Assembly (NCBI GenBank): GCA_021806685.1
Contig: JAJZQU010000005.1
Location: 1-36,993, forward strand
Source: a bacterium
GTDB taxonomy: Bacteria; Patescibacteriota; Patescibacteriia; 2-12-FULL-60-25
DNA length: 36,993 nucleotides
Reading direction: 5' to 3'
A model generated the notes under the pieces. That model saw nothing but the letters and a program-made list of their open reading frames with translations. It did no database searches and was not told where the DNA came from. Position numbers and translations under genes: made by a program. Shown here piece after piece: positions 3,030 through 9,935 of the stretch; the first letter of the stretch is position 1, and each line of letters starts with the position of its first letter.

Positions 3030-3455
3030 TTATTTACCGGCTTTGGGTTTCTTATTGCCGTAGAGCGAACGGCCGCGACGGCGGTTGGCTACTCCCTGGG
3101 TATCATAAACGCCACGCAGTACATGATAACGCACGCCTGGCAGGTCTTTAACGCGGCCACCGCGGATCATGACGATTGAGTGCTCTTGCAGGTTATGTCC
3201 TTCACCCGGGATATAAGCCGTGACTTCCTGGCCATTGGAGAGGCGGACGCGGGCGATCTTGCGCAAAGCTGAGTTTGGCTTTTTCGGCGTCATGGTCGTG
3301 ACCTTGGTGCAGACGCCACGCTTAAACGGACTCCCTTTGGGGAGCTCTGTGCGGGTGCGGTGCAAGGTATCGCGCGTGAACTGCAGCGCCGGACTCTTGG
3401 ATTTTACCTTGGCTGTGCGGCGAGAGCGCCGTATGAGTTGGTTGAAAGTAGGCAT
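3030..3455 (-). CDS. rpsL: 30S ribosomal protein S12
   Basis: [13 protein letters not shown]...[20 protein letters not shown]...[11 protein letters not shown]. Confidence 0.98.
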
Positions 3456-3544: not shown

Positions 3545-4543
3545 CTATTTTGACGATAGTAACCACCAAAGATTCTCCAATTCTCTCGATATGCCATAGG
3601 CATTGCCGTGCGACAAAAGGCCGAGATATGACTCGACGGACTGGCGGTTGGGACTATAGCCGACGCGTTTCTTCATCCTGATTTTCGTCTTGGTGCGCAG
3701 CACTCGGTGATGCGGAAAATGTACCCAGCCTAAAAAATCGACACCCGGTGCAAGGGTTTTAATGAAAACTTTGTCCGGATGAAGGCTCAAGGCAAGCGAC
3801 CCGGATAAGAACGCGGCGACCTTTGGCAAACAGTTCGACAACCCGGATCGGTCATGCGACATGAAAACGAAATCATCGGCATAACGGGCGTAATATCTCA
3901 TGTGGAGATCGTTCTTGACGAACTGGTCTAGCTCATTCATGTAAACATTTGCAAAAAGCTGTGAGGTCAAATTGCCGAGCGGTATACCCTTGCCGTGACA
4001 GACTTCGAAGCTTCCGATGACGCTTTTAAGCAAATCAAGCAAACGGGGACTGGTTATGCGGTTGCGCAAAATATCAACCAAAATTGCATGATCCACGCTG
4101 GCGAAAAACTTTCGGATGTCGCATTTCAAAACCCAGCACGTCCTCATATTGTTCTGACTTGTCATCCTAGCGAGCTTCTCAAAACGCTCAAGTGCGCGAT
4201 GCATGCCTTTGCCCGTTTGGCATGAAAATGAGTCGGAAATAAAAAGCGTGGCAAAGAACGGATAAAGTTTCCGATGGATAGCATGGTGCAACAGTCGATC
4301 TCGCACAGTAGCCTTATGGATGTCACGCGGTTTCGGGTCGTTGATCCGAAAATGCTGATAGTCGCCATGCACATAGTGACCGTTCATTAAATCCGCGTGT
4401 AAATTAGCGACCTCATCGCCTAAATGCAACATGAATGCCTGCACGTCTTTCTTATTTCGCTTCCCTCGGATAAACTCTTGCCAAGCTTCACAGAGGTTTT
4501 CCACCGACACAACCTCTTCAAACGAAACAGTACACAATTTCAT
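3545..4543 (-). CDS. DGR-type reverse transcriptase
   Basis: RT motifs: KCDIRKFFASVDH, GIPLGNLTSQLFANVYMNELDQFV (DGR-like GNxTSQ motif), YARYADDFVF, VDFLGW; no intron maturase/HNH domain; adjacent TR/VR pair. Confidence 0.95.
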   Translation of the reverse strand: MKLCTVSFEEVVSVENLCEAWQEFIRGKRNKKDVQAFMLHLGDEVANLHADLMNGHYVHGDYQHFRINDPKPRDIHKATVRDRLLHHAIHRKLYPFFATLFISDSFSCQTGKGMHRALERFEKLARMTSQNNMRTCWVLKCDIRKFFASVDHAILVDILRNRITSPRLLDLLKSVIGSFEVCHGKGIPLGNLTSQLFANVYMNELDQFVKNDLHMRYYARYADDFVFMSHDRSGLSNCLPKVAAFLSGSLALSLHPDKVFIKTLAPGVDFLGWVHFPHHRVLRTKTKIRMKKRVGYSPNRQSVESYLGLLSHGNAYGISRELENLWWLLSSK

Positions 4544-4565
4544 ATCTCTAATTCGTAATTTTTAA

Positions 4566-4976
4566 TTGTTAATTATTAATTTCTATGAGTATACCCCCCC
4601 CCCGCAACTAATCACGTCAAACCTGCCTGTTTTACAAAAAGTAGTGGACGCATACAAAATCTGGCACGCGCATTATTCTAACTTTCCCCGTCTCTCTAAA
4701 TTTTCACTGGGTACCAAGATCGATTCGCTCTTCACTGACCTGATCAATCTCATCTTCTTGGCCGGATATGCCGGAGCCGACCAAAAATACACGTTCGTCG
4801 TGAGGGCAGCGACAAAACTGGATCTTCTTAAATTCTTCATGCAGATCGCGTGGGAAACACGGTGCTTGGATCATAAAAAATACGCAGCCCTGTCCGTTCC
4901 CTTGAACGAGATTGGAAAAGACGTTGGAAACTGGCAAAAATATTGTAAAAAGAAACAACCCCCATCCGAGGAATGA
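4566..4976 (+). CDS. avd: Avd-like accessory protein (four-helix-bundle family) of the DGR
   Basis: LPVLQKVVDAYKIWHAHYSNFPRLSKFSLGTKIDSLFTDLINLIFLAGYAGADQKYTFVVRAATKLDLLKFFMQIAWE... resembles the Avd/four-helix-bundle family; lies between RT and TR. Only in-frame 5' start is TTG at 4566; ATG at 4585 is out of frame because of a C10 tract. Confidence 0.85.
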   Translation: MLIINFYEYTPPPQLITSNLPVLQKVVDAYKIWHAHYSNFPRLSKFSLGTKIDSLFTDLINLIFLAGYAGADQKYTFVVRAATKLDLLKFFMQIAWETRCLDHKKYAALSVPLNEIGKDVGNWQKYCKKKQPPSEE

Positions 4977-5001
4977 GGGCGTTTGTAAAAACATGAAGAG
5001 A

Positions 5002-5138
5002 TTTGCGGGACGAACGGGAACCGGTTGCTCTCGTTCCAGTCGTTGTCGAACCAGTTGTCGTCGAGATACGGTTCGCCGTCATTCACGTTCAGCACCGCGA
5101 CGTTCCGGTTGTTGCCATCATCGAGGGTGAACGAGCCA
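5002..5138 (-). repeat. DGR template repeat (TR)
   Basis: Aligns without gaps to 5567-5703 (offset 565); all 24 mismatches are at T on + strand (A in TR sense). Confidence 0.96.
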
Positions 5139-5214
5139 CTCGTCCATATCGGAAGCCATCTGGATCACCACCGCTCGAAAAATCTCACGGTTGAATTTTA
5201 TTCGGGGTCGCTCG

Positions 5215-5240
5215 CCCGCCGTAGCTTTAGCGAAGGCGGG
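5215..5240. repeat. Minipalindrome family A copy 1
   Basis: CCCGCCGTAGCTTTAGCGAAGGCGGG. Confidence 0.7.
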
Positions 5241-5418
5241 TTGCCCACCAGCTTCCGATACCAAGTATCTTCAGTTTATGAAAAGGCCGCTACACGCTGC
5301 CGACCAGCGTACCGACCGACATTCTGGCAAACGGTCCCTTCCAGATTTCGACCGTCCGAAGCCTTGACTGCGGACTGTTTCGTCTATTATCCATTTTAAA
5401 TTATACAAAAATGCAAGC

Positions 5419-5469
5419 GGCCCCGTCCAGTGCACGAATCCAAGTGAGGATTGTGTACCGAACGGGGCC
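5419..5469. other. Nested hairpin between TR and VR
   Basis: GGCCCCGT(5419-5426)/ACGGGGCC(5462-5469) outer stem, inner TGCAC-AATCC/GGATT-GTGTA stems, AAGTGA loop; on minus strand followed by gcttgcatttttg. Confidence 0.6.
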
Positions 5470-5515
5470 TGAGAGCCGAGCGACCAAGGGATCGAGGGCC
5501 GTTTTGAAGGGCCAA

Positions 5516-5541
5516 GGCACGGCGGTCGCGACCGCCGTGCC
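5516..5541. repeat. Perfect 26-bp palindrome downstream of VR (candidate cruciform/hairpin)
   Basis: GGCACGGCGGTCGCGACCGCCGTGCC; 15 bp past the target stop codon, no T-run after it. Confidence 0.9.
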
Positions 5542-5555
5542 AAGGAACCGAGGGT

Positions 5556-6272
5556 CTAAGCGCTTACTTGCGGGACGAACGGGAACCGGCCGCTCCCGCC
5601 CCAGTCGATGCCGAACCAGCCGTCGCCGAGACACGGTCCGCCGCCATGCACGCCCAGCACCGCGACGCCCCGGTCGGCGCCATCACCGAGGGAGAACGAG
5701 CCAAGAGCGACCATCCAGAACTGCTTGTACAGCTCCGGGTGCGCCCGGTGCAGGTCGAGCAGCTCATTCTGTCCCATGATGGGACGGTACCCATGCTGAG
5801 CGACCTCGGTCCGCTGATCGCGACCCCAGGCGATGATCTCCTCACTGTCGCTGAGCACCTCGCGGGGAGGAGCGGCGAGCCAGACGACGTGATCCTCCGG
5901 CCTCGTCGAAACGATGGCCGAGGCGTGTCTCTTCCACTTGCGACCGTCGAAGATGCTGGAGACGCCGCCCTTGTAGGTTCGCTTCAGATCCGCCATGGGC
6001 GGGATAGGGGTGTAGGCGAAGGGCACGAGCACGTGGTCGGGCGGGAGAGCCAGCCCGCTCGTGCGGTACTGACTGCCGCCGTTGCCGGTGGCCGTCACGA
6101 TGGGCTGCGGCTCGGGGAGGAGCTCGCGGCGCATGGCCCGAACCCCCCGTTCGGCTCCGCCGTTGCGGATCACCTGACCGAGCTCATCGTCGAACGACGA
6201 AACGCGCGTGAGAGCGGTGACGGTTTCCAGCCCATTCGAAAACTTGTCGTCGAGGAGGCGTACCTGATTCAT
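5556..6272 (-). CDS. DGR target protein with C-terminal variable region (C-type-lectin-like fold inferred)
   Basis: MNQVRLLDDKFSNGLETV...QVSA*; start 6272 preceded by AAGAAGG ribosome-binding site; VR spans its last codons. Confidence 0.9.
   Translation of the reverse strand: MNQVRLLDDKFSNGLETVTALTRVSSFDDELGQVIRNGGAERGVRAMRRELLPEPQPIVTATGNGGSQYRTSGLALPPDHVLVPFAYTPIPPMADLKRTYKGGVSSIFDGRKWKRHASAIVSTRPEDHVVWLAAPPREVLSDSEEIIAWGRDQRTEVAQHGYRPIMGQNELLDLHRAHPELYKQFWMVALGSFSLGDGADRGVAVLGVHGGGPCLGDGWFGIDWGGSGRFPFVPQVSA
5567..5703 (-). repeat. DGR variable repeat (VR) at 3' end of target gene
   Basis: Encodes VLGVHGGGPCLGDGWFGIDWGGSGRFPFVPQ versus TR-encoded VLNVNDGEPYLDDNWFDNDWNESNRFPFVPQ. Confidence 0.96.
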
Positions 6273-6463
6273 GGCGTACCTTCTTTCTTCTGCGATTGGC
6301 GTACCCGTTATCCCGACCTCATTGCCGGGAATCCGAGCGTACCACTGATCGTTCATCCGTAAGTAAGCATCTAAATGCAAGGTTCAAAGCCTTAGTCTGT
6401 AATGAAAAAATATAGCATAAAAAAGCCCTTTTGTCAATGACTTTAGGGACTTTACGAACTTTA

Positions 6464-6530: not shown

Positions 6531-8078
6531 TTATAGCGGTAAAAGACGTGGGTTGAGCCAACGCGGCAGCCAAAAAATGAATATCAAAACCGCTAATGTA
6601 TATAATATGATGGCCAAAGGCATGATCTGGCCGGTTTTGTCTTTTAGCTTAAATAAAATGTAGCAAAAGACTAAAACCAACAAGGCTAGGGCAAAAACCG
6701 CAAAAGCCTGCAGTAAATAAGCTGCTGCCAAGCTGGCCACCAACCAACAACCAGCCGTGATAAACCAGCCATTAGCTTTGCCTTGGACTGAACGCCAGAT
6801 TAAAGCAGGGGCAATAAGCAAGCCAAAAGCCATAACAGTATTAACCATAATTAACCCGGTGGTTTGGGAGCCTCTGATAAAAGCTAGGGACGCGCTGGCT
6901 ATCAACATCCAAACCAACCATGAGATAACATCCTTAAGCCAATCCCATTTCACTGCCAAACCATCTTTAGACAGCCATGAAATAATTAGGACAGCGACCA
7001 CAAATTGCATGATTGGCCAGCCAAGCAAAGCAGATAGGATTATGACCAGGGGCAAATGCCAAGCAGCAAATAATGACTCCCCTTCCGGTTGGACTCCTTC
7101 CACCAAAATTTTTGTTTCTTTGGTGCGCCAGTATGTAAACAAAAGAATCATGACAATCAAGAAGGCCAACCATGTTGCCCAATCCAAAGGCGAATGAGGC
7201 ATTCTACCCCAACCAGCAGACAGGCCGGCCAAGATGGCTGTTACCCAAATGGCCATATCCCAAGACTGTGAGAGGATATTTTTTATTGACCATGTTCTGA
7301 ACTTTGTAAGCCCGCTAACTATCCAAGTAACAGCCAAAGCAATGACTGCCACCCAGGTAATTTGGAATAAAGCCATCATGTTGGGCAGTTGGCCGCCAAA
7401 CCCAGTGAACCAACGCGTGAGCTGCAAGTTGCTCCAATAAGTGTTCAAATTCAACCGTGAAAAATTTTCGACAATGTTCTGGCCTGTCTGATTCAGGATT
7501 GGTAAACCTTGGAAAAGCAGAGCAAACAAGATAATTATCGACGGCAAAAGCAGGACAAGCGAACAAGCCAACCAAGTACCGACAGCACCTACAATTGTCC
7601 GCAAATCATTTTTAGTGGCGCGATATTCATGCCAAGCCACACCCAAAGCTAAACCAAATACAAAACCACGCAAAAGCGATTCCGGGCCGGCTGTTGTTGG
7701 CCAGAAACCGATTGATAAAAGATAAACGGGCAACTGACTCAAGGTTAATGGCAAGCTACCCGACCCTTGTTGCCATAAATTGATAAGTGCAAAAACTAAA
7801 GCCATTACCAGGGCAAAAGGCAAAGCAGCTTTAAGCGTATCCCAAACCTGGCTCCAAGTTTTTTTCTGCCAATAAACCAGCCATTGCCCAGCAGCCAAGA
7901 GCGCTGTGCAGGCAAGTATTGGCCGCCACAAAAAAATATCCAGCGGTAAAAGTGCTGCCGGGCGTATTACCTGCACCAACAAACTGACTAACAACAAAGC
8001 TCCCAGCAAAAACCAAACATCAGAAGCTCGGTCTGGAATTGAGGGATCTTGGCTTGTCCAAATACGTGAGCGGATCAT
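6531..8078 (-). CDS. Polytopic membrane protein, function unknown
   Basis: 515 aa with many hydrophobic TM segments. Confidence 0.85.
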   Translation of the reverse strand: MIRSRIWTSQDPSIPDRASDVWFLLGALLLVSLLVQVIRPAALLPLDIFLWRPILACTALLAAGQWLVYWQKKTWSQVWDTLKAALPFALVMALVFALINLWQQGSGSLPLTLSQLPVYLLSIGFWPTTAGPESLLRGFVFGLALGVAWHEYRATKNDLRTIVGAVGTWLACSLVLLLPSIIILFALLFQGLPILNQTGQNIVENFSRLNLNTYWSNLQLTRWFTGFGGQLPNMMALFQITWVAVIALAVTWIVSGLTKFRTWSIKNILSQSWDMAIWVTAILAGLSAGWGRMPHSPLDWATWLAFLIVMILLFTYWRTKETKILVEGVQPEGESLFAAWHLPLVIILSALLGWPIMQFVVAVLIISWLSKDGLAVKWDWLKDVISWLVWMLIASASLAFIRGSQTTGLIMVNTVMAFGLLIAPALIWRSVQGKANGWFITAGCWLVASLAAAYLLQAFAVFALALLVLVFCYILFKLKDKTGQIMPLAIILYTLAVLIFIFWLPRWLNPRLLPL

Positions 8079-9095: not shown

Positions 9096-9935
9096 TTACA
9101 ATATTCGTTCCCTGGTCTGCTTAATGATATCAAAAGCTTCTTTAGCCGTGTCCACGATGCGAATTAATTTTAGGTCGTCTTTGCCCACAAAACCATTCTC
9201 TTCGAAAAGCGTCTTATTGACCCAATCAAAGAATGGCTTCCAAAAAGCCTTGCCATAAAAGATGCAAGGCACTTCGCGCGGAGTCTTGCCGGTTTGAATC
9301 AAGGCCACCATCTCAGTCGCCTCGTCCAATGTGCCAAAGCCGCCCGGGAAAAAGACATAGGCTTGGGCCGAGGCCGAGAGCATGACTTTGCGGGTGAAAA
9401 AATAATGGAAACCGATGGCCCGTGTCACATAGTCGTTGCGCCTTTGTTCAGTTGGCAACTCTATATCCAAACCAATTGATTCCCCTCCTCCGTTATAAGC
9501 TCCCTTGTTCCCAGCTTCCATGAGGCCAGGCCCGCCGCCTGTAATGACTGTCAGGCCGGCCTTGGCGCACATGCCGCCCAACTCTTCGGCCGCTTTGTAG
9601 TAACGGCTGTTCTTAGAAGCCCGTGCGCTGCCAAAAAAAGTTACTTCATTATGGAGCTTGGATAAAAATTCAAAGCCTTCGATGAACTCGGCCATGATCC
9701 GGAAAATCCTCCAATACAAGTTTTCAGTAAAGGGCGTGTTCTCCGCCGGATAACATTGGTTATCCGGCGAGCAAACCCAAGACATGAAGCGTTTGCCGAC
9801 AGCCCCATTGGCCTTAGGTACTCCTGATACGAAATCAGAGCTCTTATAAAAAGGCCTCTGCGGTTTATGGCGTTTTTTGGAAACTGTTTTTTTGGCAGGA
9901 TGGCGGGCCTTTGCCTTGCGATGGGAATTTGGCAT
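9096..9935 (-). CDS. LOG/TIGR00730-family Rossmann protein (nucleotide 5'-monophosphate nucleosidase-like)
   Basis: VTFFGSARA, ITGGGPGLMEAGNKGA, PGGFGTLDEATE; basic N-terminal extension. Confidence 0.93.
   Translation of the reverse strand: MPNSHRKAKARHPAKKTVSKKRHKPQRPFYKSSDFVSGVPKANGAVGKRFMSWVCSPDNQCYPAENTPFTENLYWRIFRIMAEFIEGFEFLSKLHNEVTFFGSARASKNSRYYKAAEELGGMCAKAGLTVITGGGPGLMEAGNKGAYNGGGESIGLDIELPTEQRRNDYVTRAIGFHYFFTRKVMLSASAQAYVFFPGGFGTLDEATEMVALIQTGKTPREVPCIFYGKAFWKPFFDWVNKTLFEENGFVGKDDLKLIRIVDTAKEAFDIIKQTRERIL

Follow-up and report, generated by a model that had tools for sequence, protein, structure and literature searches.

A complete diversity-generating retroelement (DGR) was identified in a window of 36,993 nucleotides, the whole stretch of DNA analysed here, from a Patescibacterium whose nearest named relatives are Ca. 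Uhrbacteria. The element is likely a genuine cellular DGR, with the C-terminus of its target gene as the site of diversification, from a lineage in which avd, and less often the reverse transcriptase (RT) gene, is phase-variable. It is also likely that Patescibacteria gate hypermutation stochastically in this way, with slippery repeats in avd or RT toggling the DGR heritably, so that only a changing subset of cells diversifies. The new part of the cassette is a repeat tract at an avd start that is out of frame with the Avd body, which may be read as phase variation gating a hypermutator.

The features of the cassette are collected in Table 1. In minus-strand order the target gene is followed by the VR, the TR and the RT gene, and avd is placed on the plus strand between the TR and the RT gene. 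An earlier, sequence-only reading of this DNA had claimed a complete DGR, and this was supported by the presence of an RT, an Avd protein, an adenine-only TR/VR pair and a VR at the C-terminal end of the target. The same reading had proposed that the layout could be unusual, which held true, while the inverted avd, the hairpin after the TR and the frame-shifting C10 tract had escaped it. Four sigma-70-like promoter matches were found, against a mean of 1.9 in shuffled sequence, and the match between the VR and the TR was not significant alone.

Table 1. Features of the DGR cassette in the window, and the repeats of the second DGR in the same genome (positions given on its own locus, L007).
Feature	Position	Strand	Remarks
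RT gene	3545..4543	-	DGR reverse transcriptase, 332 aa; GNLTSQ and YADD motifs
avd	4585..4976 (4566 if TTG start)	+	Divergent from RT
C10 homopolymer tract	4594..4603	+	After avd start (ATG AGT ATA C10 G); proposed phase-variation switch
Intrinsic-terminator-like hairpin and T-run	4958..4980	-	Just past TR; overlaps avd 3' end in antisense
Template repeat (TR)	5001..5138	-	Gapless pairing with VR
Possible TR-RNA promoter (weak)	5400..5429	-	Sigma-70-like match, 10/12; between VR and TR
GC-rich perfect palindrome	5516..5541	.	11-bp stem, 4-nt loop; 24 nt past VR 3' end
Variable repeat (VR)	5566..5703	-	C-terminus of target gene
Diversified target gene	5556..6272	-	238 aa, GC 0.67
Strong sigma-70-like promoter match	6409..6437	-	TTGACA-17-TATATT, 11/12, extended -10; upstream of target gene
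Second DGR (L007), TR	9240-9377	-	
Second DGR (L007), VR	7684-7821	+	Inverted orientation, far side of RT

The RT matched the Pfam family RVT_1 (8e-23) and the PHROG reverse transcriptase family (4.5e-101), and its best PDB match was 8ub7, the RT of the BPP-1 DGR (3.6e-39). The BPP-1 DGR RT was matched with 138 bits and group II intron RTs with at most 62 bits; matches to retron RTs were also far weaker. By these PDB match scores the RT does not group with group II intron or retron RTs, and the DGR-type RT that had been proposed has the RT of the Bordetella phage BPP-1 DGR as its closest solved relative. A relative of the RT was present in 14 of 41 genomes of the family and in 146 of 381 genomes of the class. 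Further relatives came from 75 contigs of named genomes, where nearly all near relatives were labelled as Patescibacteria or lineages of the Candidate Phyla Radiation (CPR). DGR clade 2 is described by Roux et al. 2021 as limited to Patescibacteria (PMC8144416), and we infer from taxonomy, rather than from a rebuilding of their tree, that the cassette belongs to this clade.

The TR and the VR paired without gaps over 138 bp at an offset of 565. All of the 24 mismatches were located at the 34 adenines of the TR sense strand and none at the other 104 positions, for which the probability of chance placement is 3e-19. The values obtained by hand in the earlier reading (137 bp, 24 mismatches, 34 adenines, offset 565) were essentially exact, and mismatches at non-adenine positions do not exist (24/24 at A). 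The substitutions were 20 A>G, 2 A>C and 2 A>T, and affected codon positions 1 and 2 only. An exhaustive scan found this to be the single TR/VR pair in the whole 37-kb window. A stem-loop 3' of the VR, a feature of DGRs, was present in the form of the palindrome in Table 1, and hairpins 3' of the VR were observed in 19 of 61 loci compared to 4 of 61 upstream controls. In about 50 pairs from the divergent-avd clade the A-to-N substitutions favoured G (466 G, 205 T and 125 C), compared to 101 G, 96 T and 29 C in other DGRs.

The C-terminal domain of the target, of about 150 aa, is conserved in related cassettes. The AlphaFold2 (AF2) model of the target had a pLDDT of 77, and a structure search resulted in no confident PDB match, with C-type lectins, the fold expected of a DGR target, found only at an E-value of about 0.8. 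The GC content of the target gene was 66.7% (GC3 0.83), compared to 50.7% for the window and 47% for the RT gene, which suggests either a recent import or a strong composition bias.

The source genome (G000) is 920 kb in size and 84.8% complete. A second DGR was found on contig C12 of this genome (L007), with an RT 56% identical to the RT of the window and an avd that is likewise divergent. The body of the L007 target, an ORF of 650 aa, is split from the in-frame VR domain by one TAG codon (7646-7648), where the relative L066 has a Gln (YKDQP); the VR half of this target is either severed from the body or dependent on readthrough. L081, L084 and L068 hold cassettes with multiple VRs, or with several paralogous target genes per locus. 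As had been reported, the str operon (rpsL at 3030-3455, rpsG and fusA) adjoins the DGR in the window. Its association as a feature of DGRs was rejected, as rpsL was found next to a DGR at no other locus examined.

The product of avd matched the Pfam family bAvd above cut-off (6e-12), PHROG Avd (1e-15) and, with a score below the curated cut-off, NCBIfam DivGenRetAVD (2e-18). The AF2 model was a four-helix bundle, which superposed on BPP-1 Avd (4dwl) with a TM score of 0.90 by target length; a PDB sequence search with Avd and with the target gave no useful match. The family and fold matches bear out the Avd-like protein of the sequence-only reading, which had missed that avd is encoded on the strand opposite to the RT, the TR and the target. 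The ATG at 4585 is, as assembled, out of frame with the Avd body across the C10 tract. A TTG at 4566 is in frame with the body, and weak translation from this codon is possible in the off phase. In the second avd of the genome (L007) the ATG is followed by (CT)9 and is also out of frame. As assembled, both cassettes of the genome are in the off phase from their ATGs. The C10 was the sole tract of at least 8 C/G, or of at least 5 dinucleotide units, in the window. It codes for approximately residues 10-13 of the AF2 model, in a low-confidence N-terminal tail before helix 1. As this tail is outside the Avd helices, in-frame length changes should be harmless, and all other changes should silence avd.

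The switch would operate by gain and loss of C units after the avd ATG, caused by slipped-strand mispairing during replication. By arithmetic, about one third of the tract lengths place the ATG in the Avd frame, and changes in length would thereby give reversible and heritable Avd-on and Avd-off states. Efficient retrohoming of BPP-1 needs Avd, RT, TR and the stem-loop (PMC12875486), and mutagenic retrohoming, which stops in BPP-1 without Avd, would be expected to stop here as well. In Avd-on cells the RT and Avd would make an error-prone copy of the TR RNA, with the adenines as sites of error in keeping with the substitution pattern observed, and the cDNA would rewrite the VR. Diversification would in this manner be limited to a random and changing subset of the cells.

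Tracts at the avd start were found in 105 of 153 non-redundant divergent loci, about two thirds. Most of them were C8-C15; besides these there were (CT)n with at most 18 units, (CA)n, (CAAT)7 and a single case of (GA)10. These lengths are from consensus assemblies with one consensus genome per species, so differences are those between relatives, and homopolymer lengths in single MAGs may be off by one. Miscounted homopolymers leave the di- and tetranucleotide tracts, and likewise the tracts in RT genes, unexplained. Among the 77 divergent loci of the first set, the 5' ends of avd (6.2 kb in total) held 46 tracts of at least 8 C/G and the other 793 kb held 5, of which one belongs to a second avd and one to an RT; this makes such tracts about 1,200-fold rarer in the remaining DNA of the same loci. 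Dinucleotide tracts of this set numbered 10 at avd 5' ends and 11 elsewhere, several of the latter inside RTs. Of 77 divergent avd in a hold-out set from other genomes, 50 had a tract; in a phylum-wide search for avd the figure was 24 of 29, a few of them duplicates of the earlier sets. No tract was found in about 30 DGRs from viral contigs, nearly all of them with distant phage-type RTs. The remaining 48 of the 153 divergent loci had no tract of at least 8 bases, and several of these keep short or interrupted C runs.

On the genome scale, two tracts of at least 9 C are present in the 920 kb of G000, one of which is that of the avd in the window, and the only (CT) tract of at least 6 units is that of the second avd. 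In 41 genomes of the family, approximately 17 of 54 distinct tracts of at least 9 C were located at avd starts by our own count. Of 21 other such tracts examined, almost none starts a coding frame and almost all were intergenic. The counts of C/G (at least 8), C (at least 9) and (CT) (at least 6) tracts led to rejection of the tract as general genome noise. The idea that some strand-specific reason keeps the avd strand of the tract always C-rich met with an exception, the (GA)10 in the avd of L245. The other tract of at least 9 C in the genome (L118:3487-3495, G000:C13:33486) is located between two genes, upstream of a gene for a ZnuA-like metal-binding protein. In a genome of the same genus (L286), a glycosyltransferase-like ORF with an internal C10 around 1505 is a candidate for an ordinary phase-variable gene. 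Close relatives can have tracts of another length or unit: avd bodies that are 88.6% identical carry (CAAT)7 and C12, respectively, and bodies at 94% carry C15 and a tract under the 8-base threshold. On the RT tree, the C tract of avd was gained or lost many times.

The reading frame was random with respect to the Avd body. In the 105 tract loci the nearest open ATG was in frame 0, +1 and +2 in 33, 37 and 35 cases, respectively, compared to an in-frame ATG in 38 of the 48 loci without a tract (Fisher p=6e-4 on the nearest ATG). The Avd body was under strong purifying selection, with dN/dS values of 0.00-0.12 in close pairs, and in one pair with both members in the off frame the body had a dN of 0 and a dS of 0.19. 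Two features of contingency genes were thus found in avd, a repeat tract in the 5' coding region and a tract length that is unconstrained by frame in front of a conserved body.

A plain DGR without any switch would require that the tracts are neutral noise or homopolymer assembly errors, and that Avd is made from alternative starts. The assemblies are indeed MAGs, the window has the in-frame TTG, and GTG/TTG codons are found at many loci just inside the first helix of Avd. The positional enrichment of the tracts was nevertheless repeated in the hold-out and phylum-wide sets, five unrelated repeat units (C, CT, CA, CAAT and GA) were found at one spot, and some cassettes that lack an avd tract have one in the RT instead. 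Furthermore, 59 of 66 off loci had no ATG, GTG or TTG in the avd frame before the body. A plain DGR was therefore regarded as very unlikely. Homopolymers can cause slippage, and intact bodies behind off frames would also be explained if RNA polymerase or ribosomes slipped on the tract and produced a fixed, low fraction of in-frame Avd at any tract length. Such programmed slippage would be satisfied by a fixed slippery sequence, and tract lengths should then be conserved. Together with the poor suitability of (CT)n, (CA)n, (CAAT)7 and (GA)n for efficient single-base slippage, this leaves it little probability, and a heritable switch of frame is the preferred reading.

Tracts were also found inside the RT gene. 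Seven cassettes without an avd tract had (GA)n or G10 in the RT loop just before IPIGNLTSQ. At the tract the RT frame was broken in five of these cassettes (L090, L098, L032, L033 and L116); in L078 it stays open, and L117 ends at the contig end. L116 and L117 had been chosen for their split or partial RTs, and as predicted both proved to have the tract at the split. The cassettes with an RT tract occupy at least three places on the RT tree. The occurrence of the same kind of repeat in the gene for the other essential protein points to a frame switch, and not to a role in amino-acid sequence or promoter spacing. RT tracts were under-sampled in the hold-out set because it favoured unbroken RTs. 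No repeat tract was present at the junction of the RT frame breaks of L109 and L111. In a Thalassolituus MAG (L110:3117-3125) a G9 with a frame break was observed in the RT loop, with a further frameshift upstream, which is a hint of RT tracts beyond Patescibacteria. More distant DGR RTs carried (GA)16 (L088:2205, ADurb.Bin212) and (GA)20 (L099:6952, Peribacteria), with the frame open across the repeat.

The position of the tracts also bears on the explanation that the tract tunes transcription through changes to the RT leader or to the spacing of the promoter, in the manner of divergent phase-variable promoters. The start codons of avd and RT are 41 bp apart in the window, and a distance of 12-18 nt between the tract and the RT ATG is frequent, as such tuning would predict; the tract may thus have some effect on RT expression. 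However, the distance from tract to RT start is widely spread around a median of about 14 nt, the tracts inside RT break the frame far from any start, and in 64 of 105 loci the tract is located 4-20 nt after the avd ATG. Tuning of transcription was for these reasons considered highly improbable, and frame switching of avd or RT the better explanation.

In essentially all relatives above approximately 44% RT identity, avd was divergent from the RT. The TR and avd face each other tail to tail, with a median distance of 22 nt between the TR end and the avd stop codon, and this layout is common to Patescibacteria DGRs. In such an arrangement, a counterpart of the BPP-1 spacer would fall antisense to avd. 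By single-sequence folding, the region antisense to avd was more stable than mid-avd (mean z -1.56 vs -0.19, p=1e-5). No consensus RNA structure of the spacer was obtained with RNAalifold across distant loci, as the alignments were too divergent. At the 3' end of avd, the TR strand carried a hairpin with a T-run in 85 of 150 loci, compared to 1 of 150 in the middle of avd and 6 of 150 for the opposite strand, and this terminator-like motif accounts for much of the folding of the antisense region. The TR RNA probably ends at the terminator-like hairpin within the avd antisense region, apart from the RT message.

It is a general question how DGRs avoid endless scrambling of useful variants, and it is sharpest in Patescibacteria, where DGRs are common (146 of the 381 class genomes). 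If the proposed switch is true, a mutator is controlled by a mutator, and most cells would retain a variant that works while a few try out others. Gene callers will probably mark many avd genes with a tract as truncated, mis-started or absent, and RTs with a tract as broken; these DGRs may consequently be under-counted.

The cassette resembles the BPP-1 DGR (mtd-avd-TR-brt) in its RT (closest PDB entries 8ub7-8ube), in the fold of Avd (4dwl), in the A-only substitution between TR and VR, in the location of the VR at the target C-terminus and in a stem-loop 3' of the VR, where the target-site stem-loop of BPP-1 is found. In BPP-1, avd, TR and brt are co-oriented and a structured spacer separates TR and brt, whereas the cassette in the window has avd inverted between TR and RT, a terminator-like hairpin after the TR and a tract at the avd start. 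As a cellular Patescibacteria DGR with a target without known domains it also resembles DGR clade 2, the published text on which mentions neither Avd nor orientation (PMC8144416). Cassette parts on two strands, as here, and a VR opposite in strand to its TR, which is the arrangement of the second cassette of the genome (L007), are known from DiGReF (PMC3521204) and MetaCSST (PMC6642488); the passages found there describe an RT inverted relative to TR/VR, and neither an inverted avd nor a repeat-tract switch. A literature search found no DGR with a repeat-tract switch or an antisense avd; Paul et al. 2017 and Wu et al. 2018 were outside its scope and could contain the layout. The search likewise found nothing on phase-variable genes in the CPR. 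The contingency genes of Haemophilus, Neisseria and Campylobacter carry mono-, di- or tetranucleotide tracts in the 5' coding region, with a random frame among relatives and a conserved body. Phase-variable genes with such simple repeats are mostly surface, restriction-modification or LPS genes. Unlike these contingency genes, the switched gene proposed here would drive a second, targeted mutator.
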